From Chrysochromulina parva (lineage: Eukaryota; Haptophyta; Prymnesiales; Chrysochromulinaceae), in the NCBI GenBank assembly GCA_002887195.1, contig PJAB01000120.1:1-40038 (forward strand): DNA of 40,038 bases. Direction: 5' to 3'. The position numbers and the translations under genes were made by a program. The notes below the pieces were generated by a model, which saw nothing but the letters and a program-made list of their open reading frames with translations, had not been told where the DNA came from and did no database searches. This document shows positions 16,561 through 38,281 of the stretch, piece after piece (within the stretch, counting starts at the first letter, position 1; every line of letters starts with the position of its first letter).

Positions 16561-16936
16561 CTGTTGCTGTGTATGGGGACTATCAGCCGCCGCCTTTGCC
16601 GCAGCCGCTCGGCCCCGCAAGCGCGGGACTGCCGAGCATGTATCAGCAGCAGCCACAAACTAGCTCAGGCCTTCAGCCGACGCTGATGGCCGCGCTAAAT
16701 GCATGCCAGCACGCCGCCGCCAGCAGCCCACGAGCACAGTGGCCGCAGAACCTCCAGCAGGTGGGGCTGCCGCCCAAGCATGCGCCCAAGCATGGGCGCA
16801 AGCCACCTGGCTCAATAAAGGCCAGATGATCCGTACGGTGGTGTGACTTCAATCTCACGGGTGCGTGCCGAACCTCAACCCTTAGGTCTTCATCTGATCG
16901 CGTCTGATCTTGCTCGATTGTCTCTGATGGCCTTCC
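16561..16936 (+). other. Possible small Pro/Gln-rich exon or ORF remnant
   Basis: A plus-strand frame from about 16569 to 16829 encodes a Pro/Gln/Ala-rich stretch (YGDYQPPPLPQPLGPAS, then MYQQQPQT) ending GSIKAR-stop. It lacks an ATG at its beginning, and a TTTTTAG sequence before it (16549-16555) could be a splice acceptor, so it may be a last exon or a remnant. AATAAA occurs right at its end (about 16813-16818). No homology recognised. Confidence 0.25.
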
Positions 16937-18240: not shown

Positions 18241-18421
18241 ATACGCGTCGCCCTCCCCTATTTCCTTTTCGGTGCGAATCTCATCAGACGATCCGGTACC
18301 ACCTTACAAAATCCCCTTTCCCCCCCCCTCCCCCCTCTTGCATGCTGGTTTTGGATGGGCATGCCGCACCAAAAGTTTGTCGAAATGAAACCGTCGAAGC
18401 CCAACACTCTTCTTTGTTTCC

Positions 18422-20654
18422 ATGGCGCCGAAGCGCGAGTTCGACGTCATCATCTACGGAGCGACAGGATACACGGGCGAGCAAGTCGCTCGGGCGCTCG
18501 GCGGGATGGCCGCGTCGGGCGGTTCATGGGCGTGCGCTCGCTGGGCCATCGCAGGCCGTTCCAAGGCCAAGCTTGAGGCGATGGCGACCAAGCATGGCCT
18601 CAAGCCCACAGGCGTTGTGGTGGCCGACGTGGGCGACTCCGGTTCGCTCACGGCCATGTGCGCACGCGCTGCAATCCTCATGAACGCCACCGGCCCATAC
18701 CGCTTCTACGGCGAGCCGGTCGTCACGGCGTGCATCGCGGCCAAGACCGACTATGTCGACCTGTGTGGCGAGCCCGAGTTCATCGATCGGTGCCTGCTTC
18801 GGCACACTGAGGCGGCCAAAGCGGCAGGCGTGATCATCGTGCACGCGTGTGCCTTTGACTCCGTGCCCGCAGACATTGGGACGCTCTTCACCGCGCTGCA
18901 GATGCCGCCGCCCAGCCTGTGCGCGCACGCCGACATGTACCACACCTTCTCCGTCGATGGGCCACTCGAGGGGGCGGCCGCTCACGCGACGACCTTCTAC
19001 GCGGCCGTGCACGGCTTTGGCGGCGCCAAGGAGACGCGTGCGCAGCGCAAGGAGCTCCTCGCCAAGCTCGAGGCCGAGGCACCTGGCTCGTCGGTGGGCC
19101 CCGTGCCCCTCGGCCCGCGTCTACGGGTCGCCACCGGACCCACGTACAAGGCGGAGCTGGGCCAATACGCGTTCCTCTTCCCTGGCTCGGACGTGGCCGT
19201 CGTGCGCACCTCGCAGCGCGCCCTCGCGCGCGCGCCGCGCAAGCCCGGCGAGCCCTACCTCACGCCCCAATTCGGCGCCTCGTTCTGCGTCGCGGGTGCG
19301 AAATGGGCGCTGGCCACGGCGGTGATGGGGCTGCTCTTCAATGTCCTGTCGGCGCGCAGCTGGGGGCGCAAGCTGCTGCTCAAGCATCCGAAGCTGTTCA
19401 CGCTCGGCGCATTCACGGACGAAGGGCCGTCCGAGGCCACCCTCGCTGCCTCCTCATGGAAGACTACCTTTTTTGGCAAGGGCTGGGCGCAAGCTTCAGC
19501 CGAGGCACCGCCGAAGACGGGCTTCGACGTGCTTGTGCGCACCTCGGTCTCGGGCCCTGAGCCCGGCTACATTGCCACGTCACTCATGTTCCTCGCCATG
19601 GCGCGCTGCGTGCTCGAGGACCGGCCGCTCCTGGGCGTGAGTGGCGGCGTCTTCACACCGGGCGCACTCGTGGGCTCGGGCGGCTCGGTCGGTGTGAATC
19701 GGCTCGTCGAGCGCCTCCGTCGGGTGGGCATCCGTTTTGAAGTCGAGGAGAAGCGCGCGATCACGCCCAAGCCGGGGCAAGGGGGCTCGCAGGCGGGTGG
19801 TGACGACAAGGCGCCGCAGCAGCAGCGGCCTGTGTGGCAGACCGCCCTCAATGCATGCGCGCTGTTCGGCTGGCTCGGTGTGCTGAGCTTCCTGTGCTGG
19901 GAGTGGGAGAGCGTGAGCGGCGCGTGGGGCTCGACGCTGCTCAGCACGACGCTCGCGCTCGAGGCCGTGTGTGTGTTTGAGCTCGCTCAGATCGTGCTCG
20001 GGACGGCGCGTGGCAATGTGTTCCTTGGGGCCATCGTGCGCGGCGTGCGCGCGATCAGTGCAATCGTAGTGCTCCCCGCTATGCCACACGCTCTCCCGAC
20101 CAAGATTGTGCTGCTCGCGTGGAGCCTGACCGAGGTGTGCCGCCGCCCGGTGATGGCCTCTGATGACCTCTGATGGCTTCGAATGGCCTCTCTGATGGCC
20201 TCTGATGGCCTCTGATGGCCTCTGATGGCCTCTGATGAGCCTCTCTAATGGCCTCTCTGATGGCCTCTGTTGGCCTCTGATGGCCTCTGTTGGCCTCTGT
20301 TGGCCTCTCTGAGGGCCTTCTGAGACCTCGCTGATGGCCTCCTCTGACCTCCTCTGACCTCCTCTGACCTCCTCTGGCCTCATCTGGCAGGTGTGCCGCT
20401 ACCCAATGTTCCTCGCGCCGGCGAGCCGATCCGCGCGCCGGCTGCGCTACCTGGCTCCCATTCTCACATTCCCACTCGGTGCGGGCGCCGAGGCGTACGC
20501 TGCGTACAGCAGCCTGGGCATGTTCACCGGCCGCTCGATGCTCTTGCGCGGCTGCGTGGCGATGGTGGTGCCCGTCAATGTGCTGCTGGGCGGCTTCTTT
20601 GGCTATCCCATGATTCTGGCCAAGGCCAAGGGGGCTCTTAAGCGTAAGGAGTGA
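18422..20654 (+). CDS. Fusion of saccharopine-dehydrogenase-like oxidoreductase and 3-hydroxyacyl-CoA dehydratase (658 aa, two exons)
   Basis: Exons are 18422-20134 and 20391-20654, joined in phase 0 (LTE|VCRYP). Residues 1-445 are an SCCPDH/trans-acting enoyl reductase family protein: Rossmann GATGYTG near the N-terminus, then DYVDLCGEPEF, HACAFDSVPADIG and GGVFTPGAL, as in the family. After a basic, Gln-rich linker, residues 472-655 match the membrane dehydratase of very-long-chain fatty-acid elongation (HACD/Phs1/PAS2), including the hallmark LLAWSLTEV and exon 2 LRYLAPILTFPLGAGAE. By gap-free alignment the catalytic Tyr is Phe598, while the catalytic Glu is kept (Glu605). Several hydrophobic segments suggest ER membrane anchoring. 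Dehydration and enoyl reduction are consecutive steps of elongation, so the fusion is functionally suggestive, but activity of the dehydratase half is doubtful. SCCPDH relatives can have other substrates. Confidence 0.88.
20135..20390 (+). repeat. 256-nt introner-like intron made of TCTGATGGCC repeats
   Basis: A GT-AG intron in the reductase-HACD gene. After the first 18 nt it is almost wholly a degenerate tandem array of TCTGATGGCC and variants (CTCTGTTGGC, CTCCTCTGAC). The first 18 nt (GTGTGCCGCCGCCCGGTG) match the first 18 nt of exon 2 (GTGTGCCGCTACCCAATG) at 14 positions, so the intron is bounded by a direct repeat whose left copy sits inside the intron. Splicing restores the conserved HACD sequence, which confirms the boundaries. 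Retention would give a stop after about 12 codons. Confidence 0.9.
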
Positions 20655-20734
20655 GGGCTCACATTGCAGGTAGTCCCTTGTTTTCTTTCCGTGGTGCAAA
20701 GCGTTGTACTGAGCACCACGTAGGAATTGATCTC

Positions 20735-21430
20735 ATGACCTCCTTGATGATGCTTGTCCCTGTGCTCGTGGCTTCAGCGGTACAAACGTGTCATCGCAGT
20801 GCTCCCATGTTTCTGCACGGTGCCTTCGGCCGCGCGACCACGCCATGGCGACGTGTCTCATCGCCGCCAATCGCTGAGGAGAGAGTGGCAGCCGATTCGG
20901 AGCTACCGCCGCAGGCCGCCGCCCAGGACAGCGCAGGTACGGACGAGCCTCCCGTGGAGCGTGCGGCAGAGGCTCCACTGCCGCTCGGTACGGCGGTGGC
21001 CGACCGCTCCGTCAGAGGGGCGGAGCGCAGCCGCAGCTTGTCCAAGTTTGGTGAGCGCCACCCGGGCGCGACGGACTGGCTGCGACGCGACGCGGGCGAG
21101 CTCGCGTGGCGCTCGCGGCTGCAGCGCGATTGGGCCGAGCAGGACGGGCAGGCGCTCGATCGCACCCTAGTACAGCTGGGCACGACGGCCGCAGACGAGG
21201 ACGACTGGCGCGTCGTCGAGTTCGAGGGCTTGCTCCGCCGAGAGCAGACCTGGCGTGCGCAAGTGTACCGCTGGTGGCTGGGCGTGTGGGATGCCTCGGG
21301 CGATGAGTACCTCTTCAAGCCGGGCGAGGACGACACGTTTGGCTGGCCGTACACGCGCCTTGATGGCACGCCGTGGGAGTCCGGCCCGCCGCGTGGCCTG
21401 GAGTCTGGGCGCGGGCGGCGACCGCCTTGG

Positions 21431-21469
<39 letters not shown>

Positions 21470-22573
21470 AACGAGGCGGTCGGTCGGAGGCGCCGGGCGC
21501 GCCGCGTCCTTCCGTCGAGCAGCAGGCCGCGCGCGTCGGCGGCGCCGCAATCGGCTCGGCGCCGGCGCACGGCCTCGTACTATGAGGAAGAAGATGAAGA
21601 TCGTGGTGCGGAGGACATGGTGTACGGAGGTCGCCCTCGACGGCTTGGCTCGTGGCAGCGGCGCGGGCGGTGGGGCGGAGGGCGCGGAGCAGGGGCGGAG
21701 GACGAGCCATTCGAGGAGGACGACGAGGACAATGCGGGGGTGAGCGAGGGGCTCGAGCGCGTCGCGGCGACTCTCGGCGGTACCCCCACGCGTAGGCGAC
21801 GTGACGGGCGCCGCTCAGCACGCGAGTACGAGGAGGAGGAAGAGGAGGAGGGCGACGACGACAAGGACGATGCCCCGAGGCGGCGATGGTTCGGGTGGGG
21901 GCTGCGAGAGCGCTGGCGGCGCTGGCGAAGCCGGGGCAGCGAGCGAGCCAACGACGCCCAGGACGACGCCCAATCAGCGCCCAGCCGACGCAGCGGCGGA
22001 CGCAACAGCGGTCGCAGCGGCGGCCGCAGCAGCGGCAGCGGCGGCCGCAGCAGCGGTCGCAGCGGCCGCGGCCGCGGCGGCGGCAGTGGCGGCAGCGGGA
22101 GCGCCTCGAGGACACCGCGCGCCGCCGTGAGCGTCTCCTCCAAGCAGAACGCGTACATCGACAGGCGGCTCGAAGTCCTGGCTGAACGGGTGGAGGATCG
22201 GCTGCGAGGATTGCGGGCAGAGGAGACGGAGTTACTCCGTCGGCGCGAAGAGGCGAGCGAGCGGCTGCGCGCGCTACGCTCGTCGATTGAGCGCACGGGT
22301 GAGGTTGTGCTCGAGGATCGAGATGCGGTGGAGACCAAGGCAGATCGCTCGCAATACCGCTCGCTCGAGGCCGTCGTGGCGCAGCTGAGATCGCAGCGAG
22401 ATCGCGCGTGGGACGCCATCGATGAGGCCGAGGCGCGCCTCGACGAGATCGAGGCTGCCAGACGCACCCTCGAGAAGCGCGGCATGAACGGAATACTCGC
22501 CATCGTCGAGGAGCGGCGCGCCGGCGTGTCGCCCGCGCTGCGCAACTACCTTGCGAAGCTGCTGGAGATGTGA
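20735..22573 (+). CDS. Probable secretory- or plastid-targeted disordered coiled-coil protein (612 aa)
   Basis: I do not recognise the family. The ATG at 20735 opens with a hydrophobic signal-like segment (TSLMMLVPVLVASAV), followed by a basic Ser/Thr/Arg-rich stretch that could be a plastid transit peptide. Residues about 100-210 are a Trp-rich globular-looking region (FGERHPGATDWLRRDAGELA; WRAQVYRWWLGVWD; FKPGEDDTFGWPYTRLDGTP). The middle holds acidic (GAGGAC)n-encoded Asp/Glu tracts alternating with Arg-rich and Gly/Ser/Arg repeats. The last 150 residues are a heptad-rich coiled coil (RRLEVLAERVEDRLRGLRAE). It begins only 80 bp after the stop of the fusion gene, on the same strand, so its promoter must be very short or overlap that gene. 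Confidence 0.7.
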
Positions 22574-23049
22574 CGAGTGACAATCAAACTGTCACATGCC
22601 GAAGGGGGGGAAGCAGATTCCCAGCGCACACGACGGGCGACCAGTCGCACTTTATGTACGCGTTCCGTCGCTGTACCGACAGTTCCGTGTCGTTTCACGA
22701 ACATGTGGAGAAACCGCCGAAAGCAAAACCGACTATTTTGGCATTCGGGCCGAACAGTGACGAGTTATCGAGTACCGGAGGTAAAGTTTATGAAGTTTGT
22801 ACCGGTACCGGTTGCAACCGGAGCATGAACCGGAGGGTTCAGGGTACTGACCGGGGGGGCTGTGAACCATTCAAGACAGAATCTGGTTGGGCACGCAGGA
22901 TTCGGTGTAGGACGGCGAAGGCCCCTTGCGCTGGATGAGGTGTCGGTGGGCCTCAAATGGGAGATACTTTCGTATCGCGAATGACGAAATCGCACATGGC
23001 GCAATCAAGCGGCCCGGCGACGGGGACCGAAACCTTCAAATCCCCTTCA
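22574..23049. other. Intergenic region before the PsbP-family gene
   Basis: No gene recognised. ACCGGT-rich sequence (GTACCGGTACCGGTTGCAAC around 22799-22818) forms a short palindromic cluster. The frame of the PsbP-family gene is open upstream to an ATG at 22957, so part of this may be coding if that start is used. Confidence 0.45.
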
Positions 23050-23859
23050 ATGGCAAGGGAGACAATGGCAAGGGAGACGACGTGTGGGCGGCTACTCTTG
23101 CTTCTGGCGCTGGCAGCTCACTCCGATGCGGTTCCACCGCGCGCAACTCTCGCCAGGCAACTCACTTTCACAATGCCCTGGCCTAATATGCCGCGGCGGG
23201 CCCTGCTGAATTCGGCCACCGCCGCTGCCATACTGAGCCATTGCCGTCCGCCAGCCGCCGCAGCAGGTGCCTCCGCGGCCGTGTTCGCGCAGCGATTCTC
23301 CGTCGCTGGCAACATCTCGCCGCTGCCGCCGCTCGGGCAGTACAGTCGCTACGAGGATCAGCTTTCATCGCCCAAGGGTGCCAAGGCGCTCTCGCTCACG
23401 ATGCACTTTGACTTCCCGCAGCAGTTTCAGCAGATTGGCCGCGCGCTAGGAGGAATCGCATTCGTCGACGGCAACTCGGGGCTGCGAGTCTTCGTGCTCA
23501 GGGCGCCGCTGCCCGGCACCGCCCTCGCCGAGACGCCGAAACAGTGGTTTGCCGAGTCGATCTTCAGCCCTGATGGGCAGCTGGTTCGCGAGGGAGTCGA
23601 GATCGACGCCTACAAGACGACGTCGGCCAAGATGATCGACGCGCCCGAGGGGGCCGCCACGGCGCGACGCCGCATCGCTCTCAAATATACCGTGATCACG
23701 CCGGCCAACCAGCGCGCGACGGATCGGTTCGCCTTTGCTGATGTCTACGAGGTTGAGGGCGTCGCGTACATCCTGTTCACCTCCGCCGGCGCCACCAAGT
23801 GGGAGGGCGGCGAAAAGGAGCGGTGCGAGCGCATTGCGGACTCCTTCTTTGTTGGTTGA
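23050..23859 (+). CDS. PsbP-family thylakoid lumen protein with tripartite targeting (269 aa)
   Basis: The C-terminal 190 residues fit the PsbP fold used by photosystem II and by PsbP-like/PsbP-domain proteins: a start near YEDQLSSPKGAKALSL, a central ITPANQRATDRFAF, and a closing VAYILFTSAG, ERCERIADSFF, as in PsbP C-termini. The leader is informative. An ER signal (CGRLLLLLALAAHSDAV, about residues 12-28) is followed by a basic transit-like stretch. A second hydrophobic segment then begins with twin arginines (MPRRALLNSATAAAIL, Arg49-Arg50) and ends in an Ala-rich cleavage-like site, as for Tat import into the thylakoid lumen. This supports a secondary plastid. The start is uncertain among in-frame ATGs at 22957, 23050 and 23065; the latter two come from a 15-nt duplication (MARET twice). 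Which PsbP subfamily it belongs to is not resolved. Confidence 0.85.
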   Translation: MARETMARETTCGRLLLLLALAAHSDAVPPRATLARQLTFTMPWPNMPRRALLNSATAAAILSHCRPPAAAAGASAAVFAQRFSVAGNISPLPPLGQYSRYEDQLSSPKGAKALSLTMHFDFPQQFQQIGRALGGIAFVDGNSGLRVFVLRAPLPGTALAETPKQWFAESIFSPDGQLVREGVEIDAYKTTSAKMIDAPEGAATARRRIALKYTVITPANQRATDRFAFADVYEVEGVAYILFTSAGATKWEGGEKERCERIADSFFVG

Positions 23860-24273
23860 GCGCGCGCTGCGCAAAAGCATGTCGTTCTCAACATTCACAC
23901 ACGTGTTATCGACGTCTCGATCGCGTCGTGTACCGCAACACGTGTTCGTAAACGTAATCGAATAACCGACGGTCGGAGAGGAACTTGAAGCGGATCGAAT
24001 GTTAACTCGCACAAAAGTCTGAGGCCATGATTTCAGGCTTTTCATTACTACTATAGAGAGTATTGATGAATTACAGTAATGGGAATCCAGCACCGACGTT
24101 GAGTCACAGTTCCGCCATCCGGACCTTTACGTAAAGACCTTGCGACTGCCCTTTTTGTGAGCTTACTGTACGGTCCCTACACCCTGTGCTGCCTTCGTGG
24201 TTTTGAGATGCATGTATTCGTGTTTAACGACAATTCACACGCAACTTGAGCGCGCCACTCAGAGTTTTGCACA
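23860..24273. other. AT-richer intergenic region
   Basis: Space between two plus-strand genes with lower GC content than the genes. I see no ORF, RNA gene or strong repeat. Confidence 0.5.
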
Positions 24274-24966
24274 ATGGAGGCATCCGACTGCCTTCCGGGC
24301 CGTTCTGTCGGTGGACTCGCCGGAGTCAAGCTCAGGTTCCGACCGCAGCTCTTCTGGCAAGAGCTTTTGCCAGAGCACGTGGTGTCGTCGAGACATCTTC
24401 AATTCAATTGCGACATGGCCACCGGCCGAAACTATGCGCGGCTTCCGTCCGAGACGTCGTACAGCGCGCACGGAGAGTACGCATTCTCGATGGCTCACGC
24501 TGTGCCCGACGCCGATGCCGACCCCGCCGCCGCCACGCATGTGGCACGAGCGCTCCGTGAGGCGGCCACGTTCCAGGAGAGCCTCACACCGCTGCGACAC
24601 TTGATCTCGTCGTGCTACTGCACGCGTGACACATTAGCCGAGGCGCTGACCGAAGTCGCTCGCCAGGGGAACATCGAGGGGTGCGAGCTGCTGCTGCGTG
24701 CTGGAGCTGATCCTCGGGCGACGCCGCATGGCAAGACGGCGCTGCACGTTGCCGTCGAGGAGGGCCACGAGCCAGTGGCACATGCGCTCGCCAAGGCCGA
24801 CCCAAGCACGATCGCCATCGAGTGCTACGGCTGCACGCCAGTGAAGCTGGCGCGCGAGCGTGACATGGCCGGCCTTGCGAGGCGGCTCGAGGCGCACGCG
24901 CAGGAGGCGTTGAGCGCGCGCGCGATGGCCACTGATAAGCCCCCGATTGCCCTGAGCCACGGCTGA
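24274..24966 (+). CDS. Small ankyrin-repeat protein (230 aa)
   Basis: Residues about 118-185 make up roughly two and a half ankyrin repeats: AEALTEVARQGNIEGCELLL, then AGADPRATPHGKTALHVAV and EEGHEPVAHALAKADP, followed by a degenerate repeat (YGCTPVKLARERDMAGLARR). Ankyrin repeats mediate protein-protein binding. The N-terminal 115 residues have no recognised domain, and the ending is short and basic-polar. The ATG at 24274 is the first in frame. Partner and pathway cannot be told. Confidence 0.8.
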   Translation: MEASDCLPGRSVGGLAGVKLRFRPQLFWQELLPEHVVSSRHLQFNCDMATGRNYARLPSETSYSAHGEYAFSMAHAVPDADADPAAATHVARALREAATFQESLTPLRHLISSCYCTRDTLAEALTEVARQGNIEGCELLLRAGADPRATPHGKTALHVAVEEGHEPVAHALAKADPSTIAIECYGCTPVKLARERDMAGLARRLEAHAQEALSARAMATDKPPIALSHG

Positions 24967-25646
24967 CGGCTGAGACGACAATCATGTTCAGGGTTAGGGC
25001 GGCCGATTGTCAGAACACATAGGAATCGACTCGATCGCCTGTTGGGCGCTCGAAGCACTACACGCTCTACTATGTACGCGCTGTCGCTGATGACACGTAT
25101 CTGTGGCCATTTAACGTGAACGTGATCGTGGACGTGATGACACGTATCCGATCTTGACGAAATAGAATTGAATAGTTTTAGCTTTTAGGTACAAGGATTC
25201 TTGATTCTTGACGTCCTGAGACAGAGTTTGAGTACACGTAGCGCGACGCGACGAACACCCGAACACCGGGGGGGAACACCAGCGACCCCTGCTTGTGGGG
25301 AGTCCTAGTAATACATATCGGGAGCTCCGACGGCGTTTTGTTCGAGATTGTTCATTCTTTCCCAACATAAAAACTTGCATCTTCTGCATCGTAACATCTT
25401 CCGACGGCATCCATCCCGACAAAGTCTACCAGGGGAACCGGACTGTGAGAGTGCCGACCAGCGCGAACGGCCTGCTGCTGCACGCCGGCGCGGTTTGCCT
25501 GGCAGCCTGCCTGGACCGTCCAGCCTGCTGCCTGAGCCTTTGCGCCACCGTTTGGCTTCCCGCTCAAGCTGACGGCGGTGTCGCCCGGACGCTCACATTG
25601 CAGGTCGCAGAGCAACAGGCCTGGAAACTTGACCCTCTGCGTCGGA
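24967..25646. other. Intergenic region upstream of the CELF-like gene
   Basis: The left part is AT-rich, the right part GC-rich with CTG/CCTGCC-rich sequence at about 25465-25545 that may be 5' UTR or an unrecognised upstream exon. A 15-nt phrase GCTCACATTGCAGGT near 25588 also occurs near 20656 between two other genes. I see no supportable gene. Confidence 0.4.
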
Positions 25647-28467
25647 ATGGACAGCCCTCAGTCACCGCCCACCTCTGTGGGCGATGCTGATGATCCTACA
25701 AAGACACCCTTCAAACTCTTCGTGGGGCAGGTGCGGCACAGCCACTCTCGGCCGCAGTGGCAGCAGCGATCGCAGCATGCCTACGCACGAGCCCTCTGCG
25801 CTGCGACGGCCTCCACGCATGCCGGCCGCGGCGCCCACCCGCCCTGGGCGGCCTTCTCGCATGCCGGGCGCGCCACCCACCCGCCCCGGCCGCGGCGCGC
25901 AGGTTCCAGTCTCGATGACAGCCGAGCAGCTGCACCCGCACTTCGAGCCCTTTGGCCACATCGAGGAGGTGAGCATCATTTTGGACAAGGCGACTCAGAT
26001 GTCGCGCGGCTGCGGCTTCGTGACCTTCTCGACGGAGGAGGCGGCGCGCGCGGCGATCGACGCGCTGAGCGACCAGCTAGTGCTCAACGGTAAGCCGCTC
26101 GTCGTGAGATGGCCTGAGATGGTCTCTGATGGCTTCTGATGGCTTCGGATGACTTCGGATGACCTCCGATTGCCTCCCTCATCAGGCAAGCCGCTCGTCG
26201 TCAAGTTTGCCGAGGGACTCCGTCAGAAGATGGAGACCCGTCTGGTGGTGACCAACGTGCCTCTTGAGACGACCGAAGCTGACCTGAGCGAGCTCTTCGG
26301 AGATCACGGTGAGGTGAAGCAGGTGCAGATCACGCGGCGGTTGGATGACAGTTCGTTGAAGAGCAACGCCGCGCTCGTGCGCTTCGCCAGCCGCGCGGAC
26401 GCCGTCGCCGCGTGCGCCGCCCTCAATCACACGAGCACGCTGCCCGGCGCGCAGCAGACACTCAGCATCCAGTTTGCCGAAACGCGCGAAAGTGCCCCAA
26501 CGAGCCCTGTGTCCAACGGCTGTGCGACGGCCGGGCATGTGCCCTCCGCCACCGCCACCGGCCACAAGAGCGCCGTCTCGGGCGGTGGCGTCGGCGCCGT
26601 GCCTACGAGGCACTCGGCCATGCCCACGGGCTATGGCGCCCGAGACGGCGCGACCAACGGCCGGTCGATGGCCGCGCACATGGGGATGGGTCCAACGGTC
26701 ATGGGCACCTCGATGGGCATGGGGCCGTATGGGATGAGCGGTGGCCACATGGGCAGTGCTGCCCACGTGAGCGGTGGCAGCGCCGGCGGCGCGGCGGTGC
26801 CTCCCGCGGGCCCCCTCGGCCTCAACTCCCTCGGCTTCAAGATCTTCGTGGGGATGATCCCGTACTCGACGGGCGAGGCGGAGATGTACGCGCTCTTCGG
26901 ACAATTTGGGCCGCTCGCCGAGGTCTTCATGATGCGAGAGAAGGACGGGCGCTCGAAGGGGTGCGCCTTCATTCGCTACTACACCCAGGAGGCGGCCAAC
27001 CAGGCGTGCATGCAGCTCCACGGAACGTTCGCGCTGCCCGGCGCGGCGCGCCAGATGGTCGTCAAGTTTGCAGAGCCCTTCGAGCCCCGCAACCCGAACC
27101 GCGCGGCGGCGGCGGGCACGTACGGGGGGCAGATGAGTCCGCCGGGAGGGGCGGGGGGGATGGGGCGCTACGGCGACGCAGCCGGCGCAGCCGGCGGCGG
27201 CGGGCAGATGGGGCAGATGAGCTTACCGCCGCACATGGGAGTGCACGGCATGTCGTACGGCATGGCGCCGTACGGCATGGCGCCTCTGGGCCTCGGCGCT
27301 GACGGCGGCCAATGGATGGCGATGCACGGGCACAGTCGAGGGACTCTCCCTACGGGAGGGGGCATGATGGGGGGCGCCGTCGTTGGCGCGGTGATGGGCG
27401 GGCCCGGCGCCATGAACGGCATGAACGGCATGCACGCCGCGACGGTCGGGATGCACACGCCGATGGGGATGGTGCCGAGCATGGGCTTGGGGCCGATGGG
27501 CATGGGCGCATCGATGGGCATGAATCCCTACGGCGGTAACTCTATGGATCACATGCCCGGCATGCACGCGATGCCATACGGCGCGGGCGGATATGCCCAG
27601 CACGGCGCGGGCGGATATGCGCAGCACGGCTATTCGCAGCAGGCCTATGGCAGTACGTACTCGCCAGCGATGATGGATGGCACGCAGCTGCCGCCGCCGC
27701 CACCAGGCAGCAGCTGGGGCGCCGAGGCGCACTCGTGGGGCGCCGATGGCTCTGGCAGCCCAACCCATGACGACTCAAGCATGTACCATCGAGTCGGCGC
27801 CGAGATGGGCGGTGCCCGCTACGGCGCCAGCGTGCTGTACCCCCCTATGCAACGATATGCGAACGGCAAGGGGCACGGGCACGGCAACGGGACAGGCAGC
27901 GGGTTTGAGGGCCAGATGTCGGCGACGACGCACTCGGATCAGGCTGACTCGCCGTCGCAGGGCCAAGCTTGGGATCGTCTGCACGTGACGAACCTCCCGC
28001 GCACCTTCACAGAGGAGGACGTGGCGCAGCTCTTCTCTCAATACGGCGCGCTCGCGGAGGTGTTTCTCCAGAGGAAGAGTGATGGCTCTCCCAAGGGAAG
28101 CTTCTACGTCTCGTTCGCCACGGCCGCCGACGGGCACAATGCGGCCAAGGCGCTGAACAACTACACGCTGCCGTCGACCAACCGGCCGCTCTCGGTGCGT
28201 CCCTCGACTGCACGGCGGAAACCGGAGTCGCCTGAAGATCATCGGAGGGCAGCCGGACCTGAAGATAATCGGAGGGCAGCCGGAGTCGCCGTAGGCAAAC
28301 CGGCCGTGCCGCGCGCGGCGGCCATGGGGCCAGCGTGCGCGCCGCCGGTGGGTGGCGCGAAAGACGGCGAGGGCCTCGGCGCGGGCGGCAAGCCAGGCGC
28401 CCTGGCCGAACGCGCAATGCCCGAGGGCATCCTCGAGGCAGGGCCAGAGGACGTCCCCATCTCGTGA
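25647..28467 (+). CDS. CELF/Bruno-like RNA-binding protein with four RRMs (850 aa, three exons)
   Basis: Exons are 25647-25730, 25903-26089 and 26186-28467. The joins restore VGQ|VPVSMTAEQL and LVLNG|KPLVVKFAE, both conserved in CELF-type RRMs. RRM1 is at about 22-100 (RNP2 LFVGQV, RNP1 RGCGFVTF), RRM2 at 108-190, RRM3 at 308-390 (KIFVGM, SKGCAFIRY), and RRM4 at 688-768 (LHVTNL, KGSFYVSF). A 300-residue Gly/Met/Tyr-rich low-complexity linker separates RRM3 and RRM4. Animal CELF proteins have three RRMs with a long linker before the last and act in splicing, translation and mRNA decay by binding U/G-rich RNA. The arrangement here is similar with one extra domain. Alternative starts upstream are possible. 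Confidence 0.88.
25731..25902 (+). other. Ordinary 172-nt intron 1 of the CELF-like gene
   Basis: Phase-0 GT-AG intron between VGQ and VPVSMTAEQL. It is GC-rich, contains two related copies of about 45 nt with CGCATGCCGG and CACCCACCCGCC phrases, and does not share the TCTGATGGCC array of the other introns. Confidence 0.85.
26090..26185 (+). repeat. 96-nt introner-like intron 2 of the CELF-like gene
   Basis: Phase-1 GT-AG intron. Its first 16 nt (GTAAGCCGCTCGTCGT) match the first 16 nt of the next exon (GCAAGCCGCTCGTCGT) with one difference. The rest is a short array of GATGGCCT/TCTGATGGCT units ending CTCATCAG. Same sequence family and same structure as the intron at 20135-20390. Confidence 0.9.
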
Positions 28468-29013
28468 GCATCCCATGGCGATGAACTCGCAAGATCGCGG
28501 GAGATCGCCATGGGTGGCTTCGAATGGATCGGCGGCGAACCTAAGGCGAACCTTATAAGGCGAGGGGCAGAAGGCGCGTGGGCACGACGTGCTGTTCTGT
28601 GGAGAGTGAATCGGATGACGATCCTTTCACAGCCCTGCCTCACACTGCGTGTGGCAGATGAGACAGGGCCAGACGAGATGCATGACGAGATGGAAGATGG
28701 AGGGCCATGCTGGTCGAGGGCGAGAGGGGGTGAGTGGAGCGGGGCCTGCATGTGGTCAACTTTTCTAATAAGGTAAAACCGGCAACATACGACGAACGCA
28801 CCATGGAACACGCACACGGTCTCTACACACGACACGACATCTCGCACTCGAAGAGGTCGGGAGACGGGACCGTGCCACCGGCTGCGCGGCGCGCGCGCGC
28901 GCGCCGCGCGGTCTGTGGAATTTTTGTGCTGATCTGTGAACGTTGTCTTTTCGTGTTGGTATGAAGACGGCAGGGCGTCGACCGGCCTCTTTGGGCCCTC
29001 GGCAGCCGTCGTG
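28468..29013. other. Intergenic region before the CaMKK-like kinase
   Basis: Contains a run of alternating G and C at about 28884-28913 that is self-complementary and could extrude or form Z-DNA. No gene recognised. The kinase frame is open to a GTG at 28936, but the first ATG is at 29014. Confidence 0.45.
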
Positions 29014-31230: not shown

Positions 31231-31396
31231 GCGCCTCGATGATGCTAGAGGTTACAGAGCCGTACAGCACACACAGGGTTAGAACATCACACAGCGTAAG
31301 AACATCATCCATCATGGCGTAAGAACATCACACACAGGGTGCCTGTGACACTGCTCACTCTGCAATTATGAGAGTACAATGTGTAGCGACCAGCCA
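31231..31396. other. Short convergent intergenic region with GTAAGAACATCA repeats
   Basis: Between convergent genes. A phrase close to GCGTAAGAACATCA occurs two to three times between 31277 and 31335. Probably overlapping 3' UTRs. Confidence 0.5.
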
Positions 31397-31672
31397 CTAG
31401 GCCTTGGACTTGCTGCTGGGAGCGGTGAGCACCAGGATGCCGGCTGCTGAGATCCCGCAAAGCATGGTGACGAGCGCTCCAAATTGGCGGGCTCGCCGGC
31501 GCTTCTCGGGCTGGTCCTGGCACAGGAAGTCTGTACACCCAAGCACGCCGCCCCAGAGCCCGAGGCAGCCGCCAGCGGCGAAACTGGCATACATCAAGCG
31601 AAGCACCGTCGGCAGTTCCACCACACGGGACACGTCGACGCGGACAGGAAGTGAAGCTAAAGGGGAAGCCAT
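31397..31672 (-). CDS. Small two-transmembrane protein (91 aa)
   Basis: Not recognised. The ATG at 31672 opens a 91-residue frame with two hydrophobic helices, about 23-46 (Gly-rich, LMYASFAAGGCLGLWGGVLG) and 64-84 (FGALVTMLCGISAAGILVL), joined by a short charged loop (QDQPEKRRRARQ) that would lie on the cytosolic or stromal side. The tail is SSKSKA. Two clean helices with a positively charged loop in a GC-rich genome make a real small membrane protein more likely than chance, but no family supports it. Confidence 0.5.
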   Translation of the reverse strand: MASPLASLPVRVDVSRVVELPTVLRLMYASFAAGGCLGLWGGVLGCTDFLCQDQPEKRRRARQFGALVTMLCGISAAGILVLTAPSSKSKA

Positions 31673-32465
31673 GTGTCAGCACAATTGATGTGTGAATTTA
31701 ACAGTGTAAGGAAAGGTGTGAACATGGGGTCACTTGCGGAGGCAAGTGTGATGACAAGGCCGCTAACAACGCAGGCCATATTCTCGCCCAAACTTGAAAC
31801 TTGTAACTTGTGTGCACTCCGTGTCTCCGTCGGAGTTTCCGTTATTGGTTTCCGTGTGTTCGGGTTAGGCTTAAGGGTTAGGCGTCGCGATCGAGGCGAC
31901 ACCATCGCGTATTACGGTGCGCGCGCTGCGCTTTTGAGGCGCTTGGTCAGTGTGATCAAAGAGGTAACTTTTCCGTTAGTCTTTCACGACCCCTCACCGG
32001 TTCACCGCGTTTATCGACGTGTTGCCACCTGCATCACTCGGAGTTGTGAAAAGCGAGCACCCCTTGGGGAAAATACCATGGGGAAATACATGGGGAAAAC
32101 ATGGGAAGACGGAAAAGCACCCCACACGTACACCGGGGGAGAGGAAGCCGGCAGCCGCGGGACAAAAAGAGGGTAGCCGGAACGCGCTACGCGGAGCCGG
32201 AGGTGCAAATTCCGGTCGAACAGGAGCGAGGAGGCCGTCGGGGTCGGCGTTGGTAGCCGAGCCGTCGGGAAAGCGGGTCGAGAGATCTCGCTCGCGACCG
32301 CTCACGGTCGCCTCTCTACTGACACGCCCATGCACACGCTGGCTCCGCATATGCCCAGAGCTTTACATGTATCACGCTTGCCCAACTGGACATCGAATTA
32401 TACTGTATTATCGGGGTCTGAATGACCCGCCATCGGATCGTAACCATGGACGGATGGAGACTTAG
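31673..32465. other. Intergenic region
   Basis: About 790 bp with lower GC content. It includes GGGTTAGGC-like repeats around 31861-31890 and CATGGGGAAA repeats around 32078-32105. No supportable gene. Confidence 0.5.
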
Positions 32466-32482
32466 CTATTCTCCAAGCATAG

Positions 32483-32519
<37 letters not shown>

Positions 32520-33755
32520 CTCGTCCTCATCGTCGTCCTCCCCCTCATCGTCCTCTATCAACTGCGAGTTGGCGAGTGTGAGTTGCTCGATGACCTCTAC
32601 GAACTTGCCAGGATTGGCCGCCCTTTCAGCTTCCACAACTTCCATGCAATCGTCCCATCCTTGGTTCAGAAATCGCAGGCATGAACGGTGAGCTCTGAAA
32701 AGCTTCACGTCAAGGCCTACTGCAGCGCACGCCCAACAACTTGCGCCCGTGTGCTTCGACTCGCCACAATGTATCGGCCTACCACGGCCGAATTGCAAGG
32801 GCAGATTACGCAGGATGCGCCGAAACTGCTCTTCAGATGAGATCCCCTCGTAAGTATTGATCTTGAGCACGAGACACGCGCATCGCTGATGGCAGCAGTA
32901 GTCTGACTTGCACTCGAGCGAAGACTCGACAGGAAGGTCCTCGAGATGCGTGGGCGCAAGGAGACCGTTTGGCGACCAGCGGTGCCCACGCATCTCCAGC
33001 GGGAGCGTCTGGAGCACGGACGGTGGGATCCCGTGCTCCTCATCCATCTGATCGTCGAGAAAGTCTTCACGCGTGCTATACCGCCTCAGCGAGACGCCAC
33101 CGTAACGGCTCCCTTGCGGTGCCAGCACTGCATAGTGCGTTTGGTCCTCTACCTCGTCCTCCTCCTCCTCGCCATCCTCGCCAGATGGCACGTAGTCGAG
33201 GTCGCTGTCCCGATCCTCTACCTCTGCTGCCTGAACAATCGACCATACGGGCAACTGCTCGCTGAAACAGTTGCTGATAGCTCGGTCAACATGTTGTAGG
33301 CGCACGTGGTAGCAATCGAACGGGCTTGGCCGAGAGCAGCTGCCATCTAGATCACTCTCTAAGTGACATATTGCGAGCTCGATTATCTTTTCTAGCATTG
33401 CATCGCCCTCGCAGCTTCTCAATGCAACGTATAGCTTCTCCAGGGCGGCGAACTCGAAGACGAGGTGTTCAGCAGATATATAAAAGTTCGCACTCTCATA
33501 CACCTTCTTCACGAACTCAAGAGTCATGGACCAGCCTACGCCCATGCAGCGGGCGAGCTGATGAATTGGACTCTCTGTTGAAATCTCCACGACATCACCA
33601 AGACCTACTGAACGTGCCTCAAACAGCAATTGCCGGACTGCAGCAAGCCACCATTCGTTGTCACGGCGTGCGCAGCCGACGCGCGCAACGTCGCGCACGC
33701 ACATTTTTCGCAGTACAGCGACGAGCAGGTCCTGCGGCAGCGTCAGGAGAGTCAT
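32466..33755 (-). CDS. F-box-like protein with acidic repeats (429 aa)
   Basis: The ATG at 33755 opens directly into an F-box-like motif: MTLLTLPQDLLVAVLRKMCV followed by RDVARVGCARRDNEWW (residues 1-40). After an alpha-helical middle there are two acidic tracts, at about 190-205 (EDGEEEEDEVED) and at the C-terminus (DEDEDEDEDEDAMLGE). A Cys/His-rich section lies at about 285-370 (CKSDYCCHQRCAC, CGESKHTGASCWACA), which may bind metal. By family logic it is an SCF substrate adaptor, but no substrate domain is recognisable. The C-terminal acidic tail is encoded by a (GTCCTC)n run at 32485-32540. Confidence 0.75.
32485..32557 (-). repeat. Hexanucleotide-type run encoding Asp/Glu tail
   Basis: TCCTCG/GTCCTC units on the plus strand encode the Glu/Asp tail of the F-box-like protein. 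A similar GAGGAC run occurs at 21431-21472 in the coiled-coil gene on the other strand. Confidence 0.85.
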
Positions 33756-34204
33756 CGGCGCGCACGCACACGTCGCTCTGTTCCACACGAAATCGACGAA
33801 CAAAACTAAAAGTTGGAAACGGCAAGTGTGAATTGGTCACAAATGATATGAAAGTCCTCTGACTCGCCACACTCGCCTGTCGATTAAATACGAAGTTAGC
33901 GAGAGTGGCCCAATGGGAGTTGCCGGTGGCCGGGCGCCGCGAATTTGCTATTTGGCCCCCACAGGTCCACGGGCCGGAGCGCCTCCGCTAGGGATACTAT
34001 GTATGTGTGATCCTGCATGCCGTGCGGATCGAAATGAATACCGTGAACGAGATACGACACCGGCCGGGCGAGGGCGCGCGCCCTGTCGCCTCACGCCCGC
34101 GATCGTGTTGTGCTGATAGTCGGCGCGAGGCGCGTGCGAATATAAGGTGCGATTACGTGACGTTCTGAGCTGATCTTTTCTCTACTAATGGGCGGCAAAA
34201 AACT
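33756..34204. other. Intergenic region
   Basis: Between two minus-strand genes. No RNA gene, array or convincing ORF seen. Confidence 0.5.
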
Positions 34205-34786
34205 TCAACAAGCGCTTGGGCCCTGCTCGCTCGCCGAGCGCATCATGGCGCAAAAGTGGCCGTAATCTGAGAAGGCGAGCACCCGGGACAGCAGCTTATC
34301 GCCGCGCGGATCGCCGCCATATGTCTGCGCGTACTCGAACACGGTAGACGCGTCGCAGTTCAGCTCGGTAAGCGCCGACTGAATCGCTTGCTCGACGAGC
34401 GCGCAGTAGTCGTGGTGTATGTTAGTCCACTCCAGCAAGTGCTCGCCGCTGCCAGGTCGGTAGTCGACGAATGCGTTAGCGTTCGCGTCAACGTAATCCT
34501 GTATGTCCCACGCCCGATCGATAGCCTGGAGGATTTGGTGCAGCGCCGCTTGCAGAAAGCCCGTGGCCATCGACCTCACCATGGCCTGCATGCCTGCGAG
34601 CTGCGCTGGAGTCACGTTTTCATTCGGATCGTTCGGCGGTATGCCCAAGTGCACGGTGAACGCCTCGCCTTCGCACACGTTGGCCGGCAGCAGAACCTCG
34701 TAGCGGATGCCGTCCACGGTCACCGCAACTGGATCACCCTCTTGCACGCCGGCCGGACACAGCACCTCGACAGTGCCGCCCGACAT
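34205..34786 (-). CDS. BART-like domain protein with N-terminal P-x-G-V repeat module (193 aa)
   Basis: Residues about 75-185 resemble the BART domain of ARL2-binding protein and CFAP36-type proteins: an all-helical unit with FVDYRPGSGEHLLEWTNIHH, DYCALVEQAIQSALTEL, and LLSRVLAFSDYGHFCAMM, where the last segment mirrors the conserved LLxFTDFxxFKxMM. Such domains bind ARL2/ARL3 GTPases. The first 50 residues hold two related strands (VLCPAGVQEGDPVAVTV and VLLPANVCEGEAFTVHLG), a Pro-x-Gly-Val-x-x-Gly-x-x-Phe module of unknown function that I recall from other algal proteins. The match to BART is moderate, without computation. Confidence 0.6.
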   Translation of the reverse strand: MSGGTVEVLCPAGVQEGDPVAVTVDGIRYEVLLPANVCEGEAFTVHLGIPPNDPNENVTPAQLAGMQAMVRSMATGFLQAALHQILQAIDRAWDIQDYVDANANAFVDYRPGSGEHLLEWTNIHHDYCALVEQAIQSALTELNCDASTVFEYAQTYGGDPRGDKLLSRVLAFSDYGHFCAMMRSASEQGPSAC

Positions 34787-34982
34787 CTTTGCAAAAGCGC
34801 CGTCTTAAGCGTTTCTCTCTACTGCCAATGTCGAGAAGGCGAGTGGTGCCGTCGAGAACACCGGCACGTTGATTTAAGATTAGTAATTTGTTATCCATCA
34901 GCACGAGCCACTTCGCACGATTCCGCGCACCCGTTATTCGTACAGCAGATCTCCCCACACTGCTGCGGCGCCGGCGAGAGCC

Positions 34983-36738
34983 TCACAGCAGCCTCAGTTT
35001 GGTAGGGCCGAGCTTGGGCATCCGCTGGTAGATGTTTGTGAGGCTGGCGAGCTGGCGTGGCACTACTTCGAAGGCAAGCCGACGCCACACACCGCTGTTC
35101 TCGGACACGTCCTCTCCCCGTGCCCGGGCGAAGCACTCCCCTTCGGCGCGTGTGAGCCTCGCCGTGCGCGACGTGAGCGGCTGGCGGTCGTCCGAGGGAT
35201 CGAGCTGGCGGCATCGGAAGCACGGCACCTGCTGCGCACTGATCGGCTTGCGAAGCTCGGCCTCGCTGACGCCAAAGGCTCCGGCGCGCCCCACGCGCTC
35301 GTCGGCGCCAAAGAGCCGCGTGAGCTGCGGAGCAGAGGGTCGAAATCAATGGCAATCAATGTCCACCATCAAGGGCCATCATCGGTCGCGATCATCAGTG
35401 GCCGTCATCAGGGGCCATCATCGGTAGCATTCATCAGTGGCCGTCATCAGGGGCCATCGTCGGTAACATTCATCAGTGGCCGTCATCAGGGGCCATCATC
35501 GGTAGAGCATTCATCAGTGGCGGTCATCAGGGGCCATCATCGGTAGAGCATTCATCAGTGGCGGTCATCAGGGTTGGCCTGCATCAGCAATGCGTGCCTG
35601 TGTGGACCGGACGACCCAAAAGAGAATGGCGGTCATCAGGGGCCATCATCGGCCTGCATGCAATGCGTGCCTGTGTGGACCGGACGACCCAAAAGAGAGA
35701 ATGCGCTCGCCGGTATTGGAAGGCCTCGGGGCTGCCGAGCGCAATCGAGGGCATCGCGAGCATCGTGAAGCACATCATGTCCGGGCAGTAGTGTGACGGC
35801 CAGATGAAGTTGGCGTTCCACGCGAGATACAATCTCGTCCACTCGAGATCCGCCTCCTGGGTGAGGTCCGGCCTGAAACGGCCGAGGGGCGCGAGGAGCA
35901 GCGCCATGCCCGCTCGCGCATTATCGGGCCAGTAGGCGAACGAGAGGTTGGAGAGCACCGCCTCGCAGATGTTCAGCCGCATGATGTCGTTGAGCACGTC
36001 GCTCAGGGCCGCCATCGCGGCGCCAGTCGCGCCGCCCCGAGCACTCAAGCGTCGAAGCTCCTCGAAGGCGTTGATCGAGGCGAGCACGGACTCGCCCTTG
36101 AGGGCGAGGAAGAAGCCCATGAGTGCATCGCGTGCCGAGTGCGGCCTGCTGCGCCCAGCCGTGCTCGCCTTCTGTCGCTCGACGGCGCGAGCGTACAGCG
36201 CCTCGTACCACCTCGCAATCAAACGGTGCCCATCATGGTCCAAGGCGAGGAGCGCTTCGAAGAGGACGATGCTGGCGACGAGGCGACGGCAGAGCGCACT
36301 GAACGATAAGCTGTGCTCGTCGCGCGGTACGATGCCAAAGTACACGCTCTCGTGGAATCGCTCGTTCCCAAGCGTCTGCTCCACCATGAATGCAAAGCTC
36401 GGAAGCGCCTCCAGCACCAAAGGCAACTCGTTGCACACGAGCGACGTGACATCGACAGACTCGTTCTCGTAGAAAAAGGTCGGCAGCAGCGTGCTCGGGT
36501 GCACGAGCGACGGCTCTGGAGTGGAGATCTCCTTTTGCAGGTGCATGTCCTCGAGAGCTGTGCGCAAGTCGGCAGCGGAGAGCCTAACCTTTCCATCGTC
36601 ATCCAAAAGCTCGCTCGCCGTGAGTAGGCGCTCAAAGATAGCGCGCGCTGCCGGCTCGACACGTCCCAGATGATACGTGCTTGATATTATAATTGCGCTC
36701 GCAGCCTCGACGAGCAGGAGGCCAGCGACGAAGCGCAT
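34983..36738 (-). CDS. Unknown protein with N-terminal signal-anchor-like helix (about 463 aa, two exons)
   Basis: Proposed exons are 35689-36738 and 34983-35324, phase 0, with AHSLFW joined to LTRLFGADERVG. I do not recognise the family. The N-terminus (MRFVAGLLLVEAASAIIISS) is a signal peptide or anchor. A degenerate EF-hand-like loop (LLDDDGKVRLSA) follows, lacking standard residues at positions 1 and 12. The body is helical and well mixed in composition (SLSFSALCRRLVASIVLFEA; YLAWNANFIWPSHYCPDMMC), like a folded domain and unlike the low-complexity proteins nearby. Exon 2 has a CFRC motif. The donor is the least certain point because the 42-nt repeat starts at the exon edge, so the join could shift by some codons. 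Confidence 0.6.
35325..35688 (-). repeat. 364-nt intron with tandem 39-41-nt repeats and an internal 42-nt duplication
   Basis: On the host-gene strand it carries CTGATGGC-related units like the introns at 20135, 26090 and 37171. They are organised here into about five higher-order units of 39-41 nt (35384-35574) containing CATCAGTGGC and CATCAGGGGCCATC on the plus strand. A second repeat (35587-35628 and 35660-35700) contains GTGTGGACCGGACGACCC; the copies differ by a 2-nt indel. The acceptor CCGCAG is clear, the donor GTCGTC less so. Confidence 0.75.
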
Positions 36739-36888
36739 CACGCATTTGCGAAAAAGCGGCCCAACACGCGGCGTGAATGCATGTGTGAACTGTGTGAATG
36801 TTGGTTTCTGTAATTTGGGAAACGCCGTGCATTTTGGAATGCTCCACGACGCGTTACATTTATGAACGTCATGTCACGGGAAAATAAG

Positions 36889-38281
36889 TCACCAGCCGGA
36901 CCTGCGCTTACGCACGGCGTCACCGTCGCACACCATTGGCGACAACTCGGACTCGGCCCCGCTGCCGCCGCCGGCCAGTGCCAATCCTCGCATCTTGGTA
37001 CTGCTGCTCTCCCTCTGCGCTGCTAATCCCGCCTCAAACTGCCTCAAGCGCACGTACGTCGAGCGCCACTCGTTGATGCCGCCCCAGTTCTCGGTCACAA
37101 CGGACAGGCTCGCAAAGACCTTTTCAAACGTGTTGCTCAGTTGGACGAGCGTGCCGAGGGTGATCCTCTCCTATAGGTCAGTTTCATCCCATGCTTCGTC
37201 AGTACCGAAGGGGAGCTCGATCACGGCAACCATCCGTGTGCCATCAGTATGCCATCAGTGTGCCATCAGAGGGCCATCAGAGGGCCATCAGAGGGCCATC
37301 AGACGGTCATCAGCGAGGCCTCAGTGGCGCATCAGCATGCAATCTAAGGCGCCTCACCTTGGGATCCGTCGCGAAGAGCAGAGGCGCGACGAGCACATAC
37401 GGAGCGAGCTCCATCACGGTGTTGAAGCTGTCAAGCCACAGGTTGAGAGCAAAGAAGCTCTGGAAGAGCGCGCCGTAGTTGTGCACGACAGCCACCCACA
37501 GGCGCGGGAAGTAAGAGGCGGGCGACAGTAGCAGGGGCGGGCTACCGTCCTCCCCTTTCTGGTCGTCCACTTCACAGATGGCCTCCGGCGTCGTCTCGAG
37601 CACTACGAGATCGCGGCGTAACTCGGCCTCGACGCGCTGGTTGGCTACTTCGAGACCGACCAACCGACGGCCTACGAGCATGGCGACGCCGAGCCCGAGT
37701 AGCGCGCCGAGCACCGCACACACGAGCATCCACATACGACCACAGCGTGCCACCCACGGCGGACCCTTGACGCGTTCGCCAAGGGAGATGAGGATGGGCG
37801 TGAAGGCGGCGAGCGTGCACATGGAGTTGAGCACGACGGACGAGTACGTATCGATGCCCTTGGCAAAGCGCTGCGTGTCCTCGTGCAAGCGTTGCGAGGC
37901 GCCCTCGATGGGCGTCTTGTTGGGATCCCACTTGTTGATGTACGACTGCATGAGCGCCATCCGCCACTGCAGCGACCAGGTCGAGCGAATCCAGCGCGCG
38001 GCTGGGTGGATAATTATGGCTGGCGCGATGATGCGCAGGAAGGAGACGAGCTGATGCCAAACTTTGAGCTGCGACTCCGCGAGCGCCGCGTCGTCTACAG
38101 CCGTTGTGTTCATCAGCAGCGAGCCGGAGCTCTGCAACGTGTCATAAAAGGACGTGTACCAGCCATTGACTGCGAACTTAATGTACGCCGAGAAGAGGGC
38201 GTGGCCGGCGATGATCAACAGGCCTGACCAGGCAAAGGCCGCCTCGGAGAAGCTGGCGGAGAAGAAGAATTCGCGAAGCAT
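36889..38281 (-). CDS. SbmA/BacA-like membrane transporter (401 aa, two exons)
   Basis: Exons are 37358-38281 and 36889-37170, phase 0 (ATDPK|ERITLGTLVQ). The family contains proton-driven bacterial peptide importers (SbmA, BacA) related to the membrane half of peroxisomal ABCD transporters. Signatures: FAVNGWYTSFYDTLQ (36-50), IEGASQRLHEDTQRFA (125-140), TLAAFTPILISLGERV (156-171), GLEVANQRVEAELRRDLV (209-226), and in exon 2 ITLGTLVQLSNTFEKV, each aligning with the E. coli protein. The length fits SbmA (406 aa), though the N-terminus before FAVNGWY is shorter. There is no nucleotide-binding domain, so it is the ATPase-free type. The tail ends in a basic KRRSGW. A bacterial origin by transfer is plausible, but it is now intron-bearing. 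Confidence 0.88.
37171..37357 (-). repeat. 187-nt introner-like intron of the SbmA-like gene
   Basis: On the host strand it starts GTGAGGCGCC, then contains about eight units of CTGATGGCCC/CTGATGGCAC, and ends CCTATAG. Unit sequence and orientation relative to the gene match the introns at 20135-20390 and 26090-26185. The direct repeat across the intron is weak (GTGAGG against GAGAGG). Splicing restores the conserved ITLGTLVQL segment, which fixes the boundaries. Confidence 0.85.

Follow-up and report, generated by a model that had tools for sequence, protein, structure and literature searches.

Four introns filled largely by short tandem arrays (introns a to d) lie in a 40,038-nt stretch of the haptophyte Chrysochromulina parva (assembly GCA_002887195.1, contig PJAB01000120.1, positions 1 to 40,038), hereafter the window, and one of them carries the 3′ end of a family of short introns dispersed through the assembly. 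We interpret this family, with a probability of about 0.77, as very short introners that combine a fixed 3′ module, a body of repeats, long target duplications, and a donor derived from the upstream copy of the target. Introners are a known kind of element; new here would be the 14–32 bp duplication, the minisatellite body, and the lack of clear inverted ends. The origin of new spliceosomal introns is a long-standing question, and in this family, with about 900 exact and 3,300 near copies, the long duplications often pinpoint the target site as well as the donor and acceptor with single-base precision, so that individual gains become readable. An earlier note on this DNA had proposed a minisatellite-bodied introner family; the sense orientation and intronic location on which it built are supported, but what is shared and conserved among the copies is the 3′ end rather than the tandem unit, and the flanking direct repeats, which suggest insertion, had gone unnoticed.

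A shared 3′ end defines the family

Intron b of the window and introns in stretches fetched from the assembly were found to have a common 3′ end, GATTGCCTCNCTCATCAG, and it is this tail, not the tandem unit, that defines the family. The features of intron b are as follows:

26090..26185 (+), intron b, 96 nt, exact GT-AG, in a CELF-type RRM gene; alone of the four in having the canonical 3′ end
26168..26185 (+), conserved 3′ module of intron b, GATTGCCTCCCTCATCAG, matching the tail
26089..26105 (+), upstream copy of a 17-bp direct repeat, GGYAAGCCGCTCGTCGT, 16 of 17 positions identical; contains the donor
26185..26201 (+), downstream copy of the 17-bp direct repeat GGYAAGCCGCTCGTCGT

The assembly searched comprises 45.07 Mb in 2,199 contigs (C numbers; the window is contig C120, and fetched stretches and the copies in them bear L numbers). 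It contains 903 exact copies of GATTGCCTCNCTCATCAG (484 forward and 419 reverse) and 3,349 copies with at most two mismatches, and the reversed control gave none in either search. In 698 of the 903, the next two bases after the tail are GT or GC. The tail starts with CTGAT, which resembles a branch point (consensus CTRAY) and whose A lies 16 nt from the last base. Among 51 distinct copies with at most two mismatches, T (80%) and C (73%) prevail at positions −19 and −20, respectively, and the commonest base accounts for 29–67% from −21 to −35, and on the whole for less beyond. The body upstream of the tail is periodic at 10 nt (identity of 0.43 and 0.34 at lags 10 and 20, respectively), and the doublet CTGATGGCCNCTGATGGCC has 1,027 matches (578 and 449 on the two strands; reversed control, 0). 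The copies that were translated lie in unrelated genes; near-identity is limited to the 3′ module, and the bodies vary. In one stretch (L048, C40 around 2003–2112), a 23-nt tandem unit contains the entire 3′ module (GCCACTGATTGCCTCCCTCATCA).

In the window, the unit CTGATGGCC occurs 12 times against 0.55 expected, a count reached in 0 of 100 shuffles; seven occurrences are in intron a, three in intron d, and two elsewhere (16683 and 16924), and introns b and c contain only variants of it. Minisatellites that happen by chance to sit in genes would be in keeping with the abundance of tandem repeats in the window (107 rows), but this enrichment, the 903 tails against none in the reversed control, and the tracking of gene strand make that explanation practically negligible, in agreement with the earlier assessment.

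Long direct repeats flank many copies

Direct repeats at the junctions were scored against a null in which the flanks of different copies were paired (n = 248; 99th percentile, 11.0; maximum, 18). In 24 of the 51 copies, an ungapped direct repeat running from the acceptor G scores above 99% of the null. Of these 24, eight represent tandem duplications of repeat and intron together, and L050 is tandem-like as well. The repeats of the remaining 15, non-tandem copies measure 14, 17, 18, 19, 21, 22, 22, 25, 25, 26, 27, 27, 27, 29, and 32 bp (median, 25), and eight of these copies have no second tail nearby: L028 (14 bp), L046 (25), L047 (27), L049 (26), L056 (27), L058 (32), L059 (25), and intron b of the window (17). 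Those of L046, L049, and L059 are exact across 25–26 bp. The 15 introns are 43 to 223 nt long, eight of them within 43–81 nt, and a trade-off between repeat length and element length, as a minimum intron size would impose, was not significant among them (Spearman −0.40, p = 0.14).

The donor lies at the start of the upstream repeat copy and the acceptor at the end of the element. With no restriction on the donor, the two bases after the first base of the repeat are GT in 12 of the 15 copies and GC, GA, and CC in one each. A gapped comparison adds old copies (e.g., L044, L052, and L053); it was limited to GT, GC, and GA donors, so that its tally of 17, 8, and 1 of 26 does not amount to a free test of the donor. 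As a control, repeats above 95% of the null were found at 8 of 24 array introns, a set that includes those from three stretches chosen for arrays, vs 3 of 46 other introns.

Microhomology at the 5′ junction sums to 26 over 15 copies vs a shuffled mean of 6.7 over 16, and 0 of 2,000 shuffles reach 26; the sample includes the tandem-like L050, which together with L028 contributes 14 of the 26, and omits L054 as too short. We regard this signal as suggestive only. Tandem copies of repeat plus intron at a spacing of about 44–90 bp were observed in L024 (C16:24001-34000) and at C43:45696-45984, C140:13625-27415, and C154:27026-27167; such arrangements could allow nested or alternative splicing, with micro-exons of repeat length.

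Variable repeat lengths, some 5′ microhomology (largely from two copies), and common tandem duplication (22 of 22 neighboring tails within 120 bp share a strand, among the first 100 of the 903 exact tails) would also be expected from local events, namely, staggered-break repair or tandem duplication of exon sequence that captured a slippage-prone minisatellite, as proposed for Daphnia introns. This scenario appears unlikely to us: an identical 18-nt 3′ end at hundreds of sites (903 exact) requires a common source, and the Daphnia repeats are given as 4–12 bp in the relevant part of that report (PMC4202315). Less likely still is a cut-and-paste DNA transposon resembling a miniature inverted-repeat transposable element, with short inverted ends CTGATGA...TCATCAG. 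Introners of this type have been described, among them one in Symbiodinium that, according to the part of the survey devoted to it, carries the 3′ site and, like the present family, obtains the 5′ site from the target duplication (PMC9860276); moreover, CTGATGA and TCATCAG are reverse complements, and a CTGATG lies near the start of several copies. However, every 10-nt unit starts with CTGATG, so apparent inverted ends may come free. Furthermore, start points vary, with other sequence at the start of some copies (e.g., L029), and the repeats are not of a fixed 3–9 bp, the size described, but range from 14 to 32 bp.

Coding continuity and orientation

The predicted spliced products agree with insertions that yield a spliceable intron and leave the coding sequence intact. 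Spliced translations were printed for 18 of the 51 copies, picked for repeats or open frames, and seven of these, together with three window genes, were compared with Pfam. In 8 of the 10, a domain in the sense orientation spans the junction (U-box, TPR, chromo, Fn3-like, PolyA_pol, PTPLA, RRM, and SbmA_BacA), the RRM only just (domain to residue 61, join at 58/59); the remaining two have their domains at other positions. Judged by eye, the frame on one or both sides is dubious or short in 5 of the 18 (L049, L029, L047, L055, and L051).

Genes were modeled with a simple home-made Viterbi finder, run with penalties of 10 and 14, the latter being used; an earlier setting that over-called introns (2,487) was set aside. 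At least three sense units are present in 20 predicted introns, and at least three antisense units in none. Across 20 stretches and the window, 22 of 24 unit clusters are mainly or wholly intronic and all of these are sense; the other two are exonic, one sense (L025) and one antisense, in the window:

1818..1890 (+), array with a 9-nt period, antisense to a predicted minus-strand open reading frame; an apparent exonic coding repeat

The claim that the unit is always in sense with its host gene accordingly holds for all four window introns but not for every array of the window. A coding-strand score proved weak (120 of 144 training pieces right); it assigned the sense strand to 39 of 50 flanks downstream and to 30 of 50 upstream, and Pfam was relied on instead. 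Among the same first 100 tails, neighbors share a strand in 17 of 19 pairs 121–5,000 bp apart and in 8 of 13 beyond 5 kb, as expected if orientation follows the gene.

Because the 3′ splice site comes with the element, as does a motif resembling a branch point, only sense insertions would be spliceable, from which the strand bias would follow. This strand-biased intronic minisatellite can thus be explained without the splicing-enhancer role that had been allowed for. A related possibility, that ordinary old introns expanded a useful CTGAY unit under selection as a splicing enhancer or branch-point array, is in line with the CTRAY-like motif in the unit and with the sense-only orientation of the sampled intronic arrays. 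It is nonetheless very improbable, as it leaves unexplained the flanking repeats, the single 18-nt tail at hundreds of positions, and the rarity of such repeats at other sampled introns (3 of 46 above 95% of the null).

The family is one among the introns of this genome rather than the rule. In 17 10-kb stretches not chosen for arrays (known arrays determined the position of the remaining 3 of the 20, L013, L014, and L024), at least two units are present in 4 of 31 predicted introns of 40–600 nt. The earlier count of four array introns among five is thus a local one, and 27 of the 31 lack the unit, the kind of majority that the earlier note had counted against a family. All 17 stretches come from the 20 largest contigs, on which copies are perhaps sparser, so 4 of 31 may be low; the 189 largest contigs hold 100 of the 903 exact tails, fewer per base than elsewhere by a rough estimate of lengths. 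The copies are clustered, the first 100 tails being confined to 46 of the first 189 contigs, with ten on C140. In L024 (C16), 10 array clusters occur within 10 kb, all on one strand.

Introns of the window

Arrays are present at all four introns, as originally noted, but not strictly as one 10-nt unit: the periods are 10 in a, 10/20 in b, 13/39 in c, and 11/22 in d, all of the CTGATGRCC type. The intron boundaries proposed earlier are exact GT-AG sites for a, b, and d and correct for the acceptor of c, the donor of which is uncertain. The features besides those of intron b are:

20135..20390 (+), intron a, 256 nt, exact GT-AG, in a saccharopine-dehydrogenase-like/PTPLA fusion gene; its end, CTGGCAG, is not the canonical family tail
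about 20150-20386 (+), body of intron a, a 10-nt array
20133..20143 (+), upstream copy of an 11-bp direct repeat, AGGTGTGCCGC, containing the GT donor of intron a
20389..20399 (+), downstream copy of AGGTGTGCCGC, starting at the AG acceptor of intron a
35325..35688 (−), intron c, acceptor exact at 35325, donor uncertain (GC at 35670 according to the gene finder)
37171..37357 (−), intron d, 187 nt, exact GT-AG, in an SbmA/BacA-like transporter gene, with an array of 11-nt period

The repeat at intron a scores 9.8 against a 95% null of 5.1. This intron interrupts the fusion gene at TEV|CRYP, and the PTPLA domain covers the join. Of six fusion homologs read besides P0001, four (P0002, P0003, P0006, and P0012) have TEVCRYP uninterrupted, and P0007 and P0009 have TEIFRYP and TELCRYP; some of these may be transcripts, so they confirm the exon join and not the absence of the intron. 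P0001, from an environmental contig and 98% identical, reads into the start of intron a, and a near relative or strain therefore has this intron too. The fusion of a saccharopine-dehydrogenase-like NADP domain to PTPLA (window 18401-20654, +) is common to environmental and transcriptome proteins.

The join at intron b, N|GKPLVV, is inside the RRM domain. Intron c consists of a 39-nt higher-order unit of the CTGATGRCC type and a tandem duplication of ~70 nt on its 5′ side, where a piece of ~40 nt is repeated at ~70-nt spacing (window 35588-35698, −); its donor may accordingly have been duplicated. A flanking repeat was looked for at intron c and none was found, and that at intron d (AGGTGAGG/AGGAGAGG) is weak, scoring under 95% of the null.

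Elsewhere in the window, degenerate units (CTGATCGCGTCTGATC..CTGATGGCCTTCC) followed by GTGCAG|GTAGCTG at 16880-16993 (+) resemble a decayed array intron. Further predicted introns contain at most one unit (34787-35228, −; 36808-36933, −; and 6088-6222, +), so not every predicted intron of the window belongs to the family.

A proposed route of insertion

In the scenario that we favor, the mobile unit would be ~30–60 nt long and consist of the 3′ module (C)TGATTGCCTCNCTCATCAG, with its branch-point-like CTGAT and AG acceptor, and of related 10-nt units in varying number upstream. It would insert into exons, mostly at N|GGY, and duplicate 14–32 bp of the target (median, 25), the upstream copy of which would provide the donor, usually GT, plus a good part of the shortest introns. 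The intron would then be the sum of target copy and element, and its splicing in vivo would restore the original reading frame; the arrays would lengthen later through slippage. Insertion would be target-primed, resembling that of short interspersed nuclear elements (SINEs) and starting from an RNA that ends in CAUCAG, or would proceed by copying into a long staggered break, and not by cut-and-paste.

Target-primed reverse transcription of SINEs and long interspersed nuclear elements (LINEs) leaves variable, longer target duplications and produces insertions that are constant at the 3′ end and reach to varying points on the 5′ side. The combination of fixed 3′ end and variable 5′ extent suits such RNA copying here too, but only weakly, because a fixed end is needed for splicing and was also the criterion of selection; unlike SINE and LINE insertions, the element has no poly(A) tail that we could see and is much shorter. 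The variable duplications of 14–32 bp argue against a classical transposase, and target-primed or break-repair copying fits better than cut-and-paste. For the route itself, we place target-primed or RNA-templated copying a little short of even odds, break-repair copying distinctly lower, and a transposase lower again. The family thus points to an insertion route other than cut-and-paste.

A more specific version, which we put forward tentatively and deem rather unlikely as it stands, is a retro-introner: excised or shortened intron RNA ending in CAUCAG would be copied into exons at a nick before GGY, and the first target copy of the 14–32 bp duplication would become the new 5′ splice site. If true, spliceosomal introns would be breeding introns without a DNA transposon and leaving a readable target-primed footprint. 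A partner LINE with the same 3′ end was not found among two of the five weak reverse-transcriptase (RVT_1) places in the assembly. The two that were read score 30.0 and 28.7 bits vs a cut-off of 29.6; the stretches (L073, C103:29901-31100, and L074, C34:41001-42200) contain RVT_1 domains in frames of more than 2,600 codons. No exact tail lies on C34 or C103 among the first 100 listed tails, which reach C189. Folding of four introns in search of a shared RNA structure gave z-scores of −1.34, 0.16, −0.90, and −0.20, with the unit pairing with the tail in two.

Several observations weigh against the introner interpretation. First, 27 of the 51 copies have no repeat above 99% of the null, which may reflect age, another donor position, or another mechanism; the null itself reaches 18, so the lowest-scoring repeats are not secure singly. 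Second, in 7 of the 15 non-tandem copies, another tail occurs inside the intron or no more than about 130 nt from it, and because tandem duplication is common and these tails are close, such repeats may not date from the insertion. Third, introns a, c, and d lack the canonical tail, with a weak repeat at d and none at c. Fourth, splicing of the predicted introns is read from genomic sequence, the proteins scanned with Pfam were pre-selected for long open frames (7 of 18), and only sense translations were scanned. The splice-site weights of the gene finder favor the sense strand, so the Pfam test carries more weight, and the finding that none of the 24 unit clusters is intergenic is weak because the finder calls only 31,367 of 240,038 bases (13%) intergenic. 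Finally, the two RVT_1 stretches read (1.2 kb each) show no tie to the tail, and a possible new insertion in a relative (see the last section) is read from protein and has an insert unlike the array family.

Comparison with known introners

In a survey of introners (Gozashti et al. 2022, PMC9860276), as far as its sections on insertion footprints go, duplications of 3–9 bp are reported, 49 of 130 families have duplications, 72 of 177 have inverted ends, and others have neither; where a footprint is seen, it is mostly of the DNA-transposon type with 3–9 bp duplications. Propagation through RNA is considered possible there for some families, the mechanisms being described as obscure. Like the introners described in these sections, the present family consists of introns that resemble one another at numerous unrelated sites in an aquatic protist and appears to insert into exons, to carry one splice site and obtain the other from the target duplication, and to use GC and GA donors only rarely; it differs in the 14–32 bp duplications, the lack of clear inverted ends, and the 10-nt tandem body. 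The same source lists a family from a Chrysochromulina (haptophyte) metagenome-assembled genome with 4-bp duplications and no inverted ends that carries the 5′ site, the reverse of the present family, which carries the 3′ site (PMC9860276).

Neo-introns of Daphnia pulex likewise have direct repeats at both ends and variable length, but the repeats, shared with the adjacent exon, are 4–12 bp, and the relevant part of the report describes no single copied family with a fixed 3′ end (PMC4202315). Amoebophrya introners are similar in being repeated introns with direct repeats at their boundaries and differ, in the description available, in direct repeats of 3–5 nt, inverted repeats of 8–20 nt, and largely non-canonical splice sites (PMC7789003). 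A mean repeat length of 11.4 bp is given for introns of many kinds in the corresponding part of another study (PMC11782384). In the open-licence literature searched, as far as the available portions of these sources extend, neither a tandem-unit or minisatellite-bodied introner nor a family with 14–32 bp duplications was found described.

Introners of mirusviruses have been reported, to judge from the available part of the publication (PMC12768974). A virus as vector of the tail was considered here and rejected: 12 viral contigs have one match each, seven of these being nearly one sequence, and none has a 10-nt array in the 60 nt upstream.

Relatives and a possible empty site

A search with the RRM protein of intron b retrieved P0242, encoded on an environmental contig and 81% identical, which starts with the translated end of intron b, MTSDDLRLPPSSG; intron b would therefore predate the split from the source of P0242. 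Another protein, P0243, runs through the site of intron b, as relatives do at intron a; these proteins may derive from transcripts. P0242 also differs at a second position of the same gene:

26887..26919 (+), possible empty site; YALFGQFGPLA is coded once here and is present twice in P0242, around a 17-residue insert

The duplicate and the insert sit within an RRM. Translated back, the insert could be an unspliced new intron of 51 nt with a 33-bp duplication, a lead from one case. A repeated 7-residue word was found in 5 of 271 retrieved proteins, and the other four resemble domain or low-complexity repeats.

The spliceosomal-type introns mark the source as a eukaryote, and one HSP90, a single gene on one contig of an assembly that may be mixed, suggests that the host is probably a prymnesiophyte haptophyte. 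This protein shares 80% identity with its counterparts in Prymnesium parvum (98% covered) and Emiliania huxleyi (49% covered in one alignment); identity is 70% to a Pavlovales species and up to 97% to closer matches among the best 120 listed.

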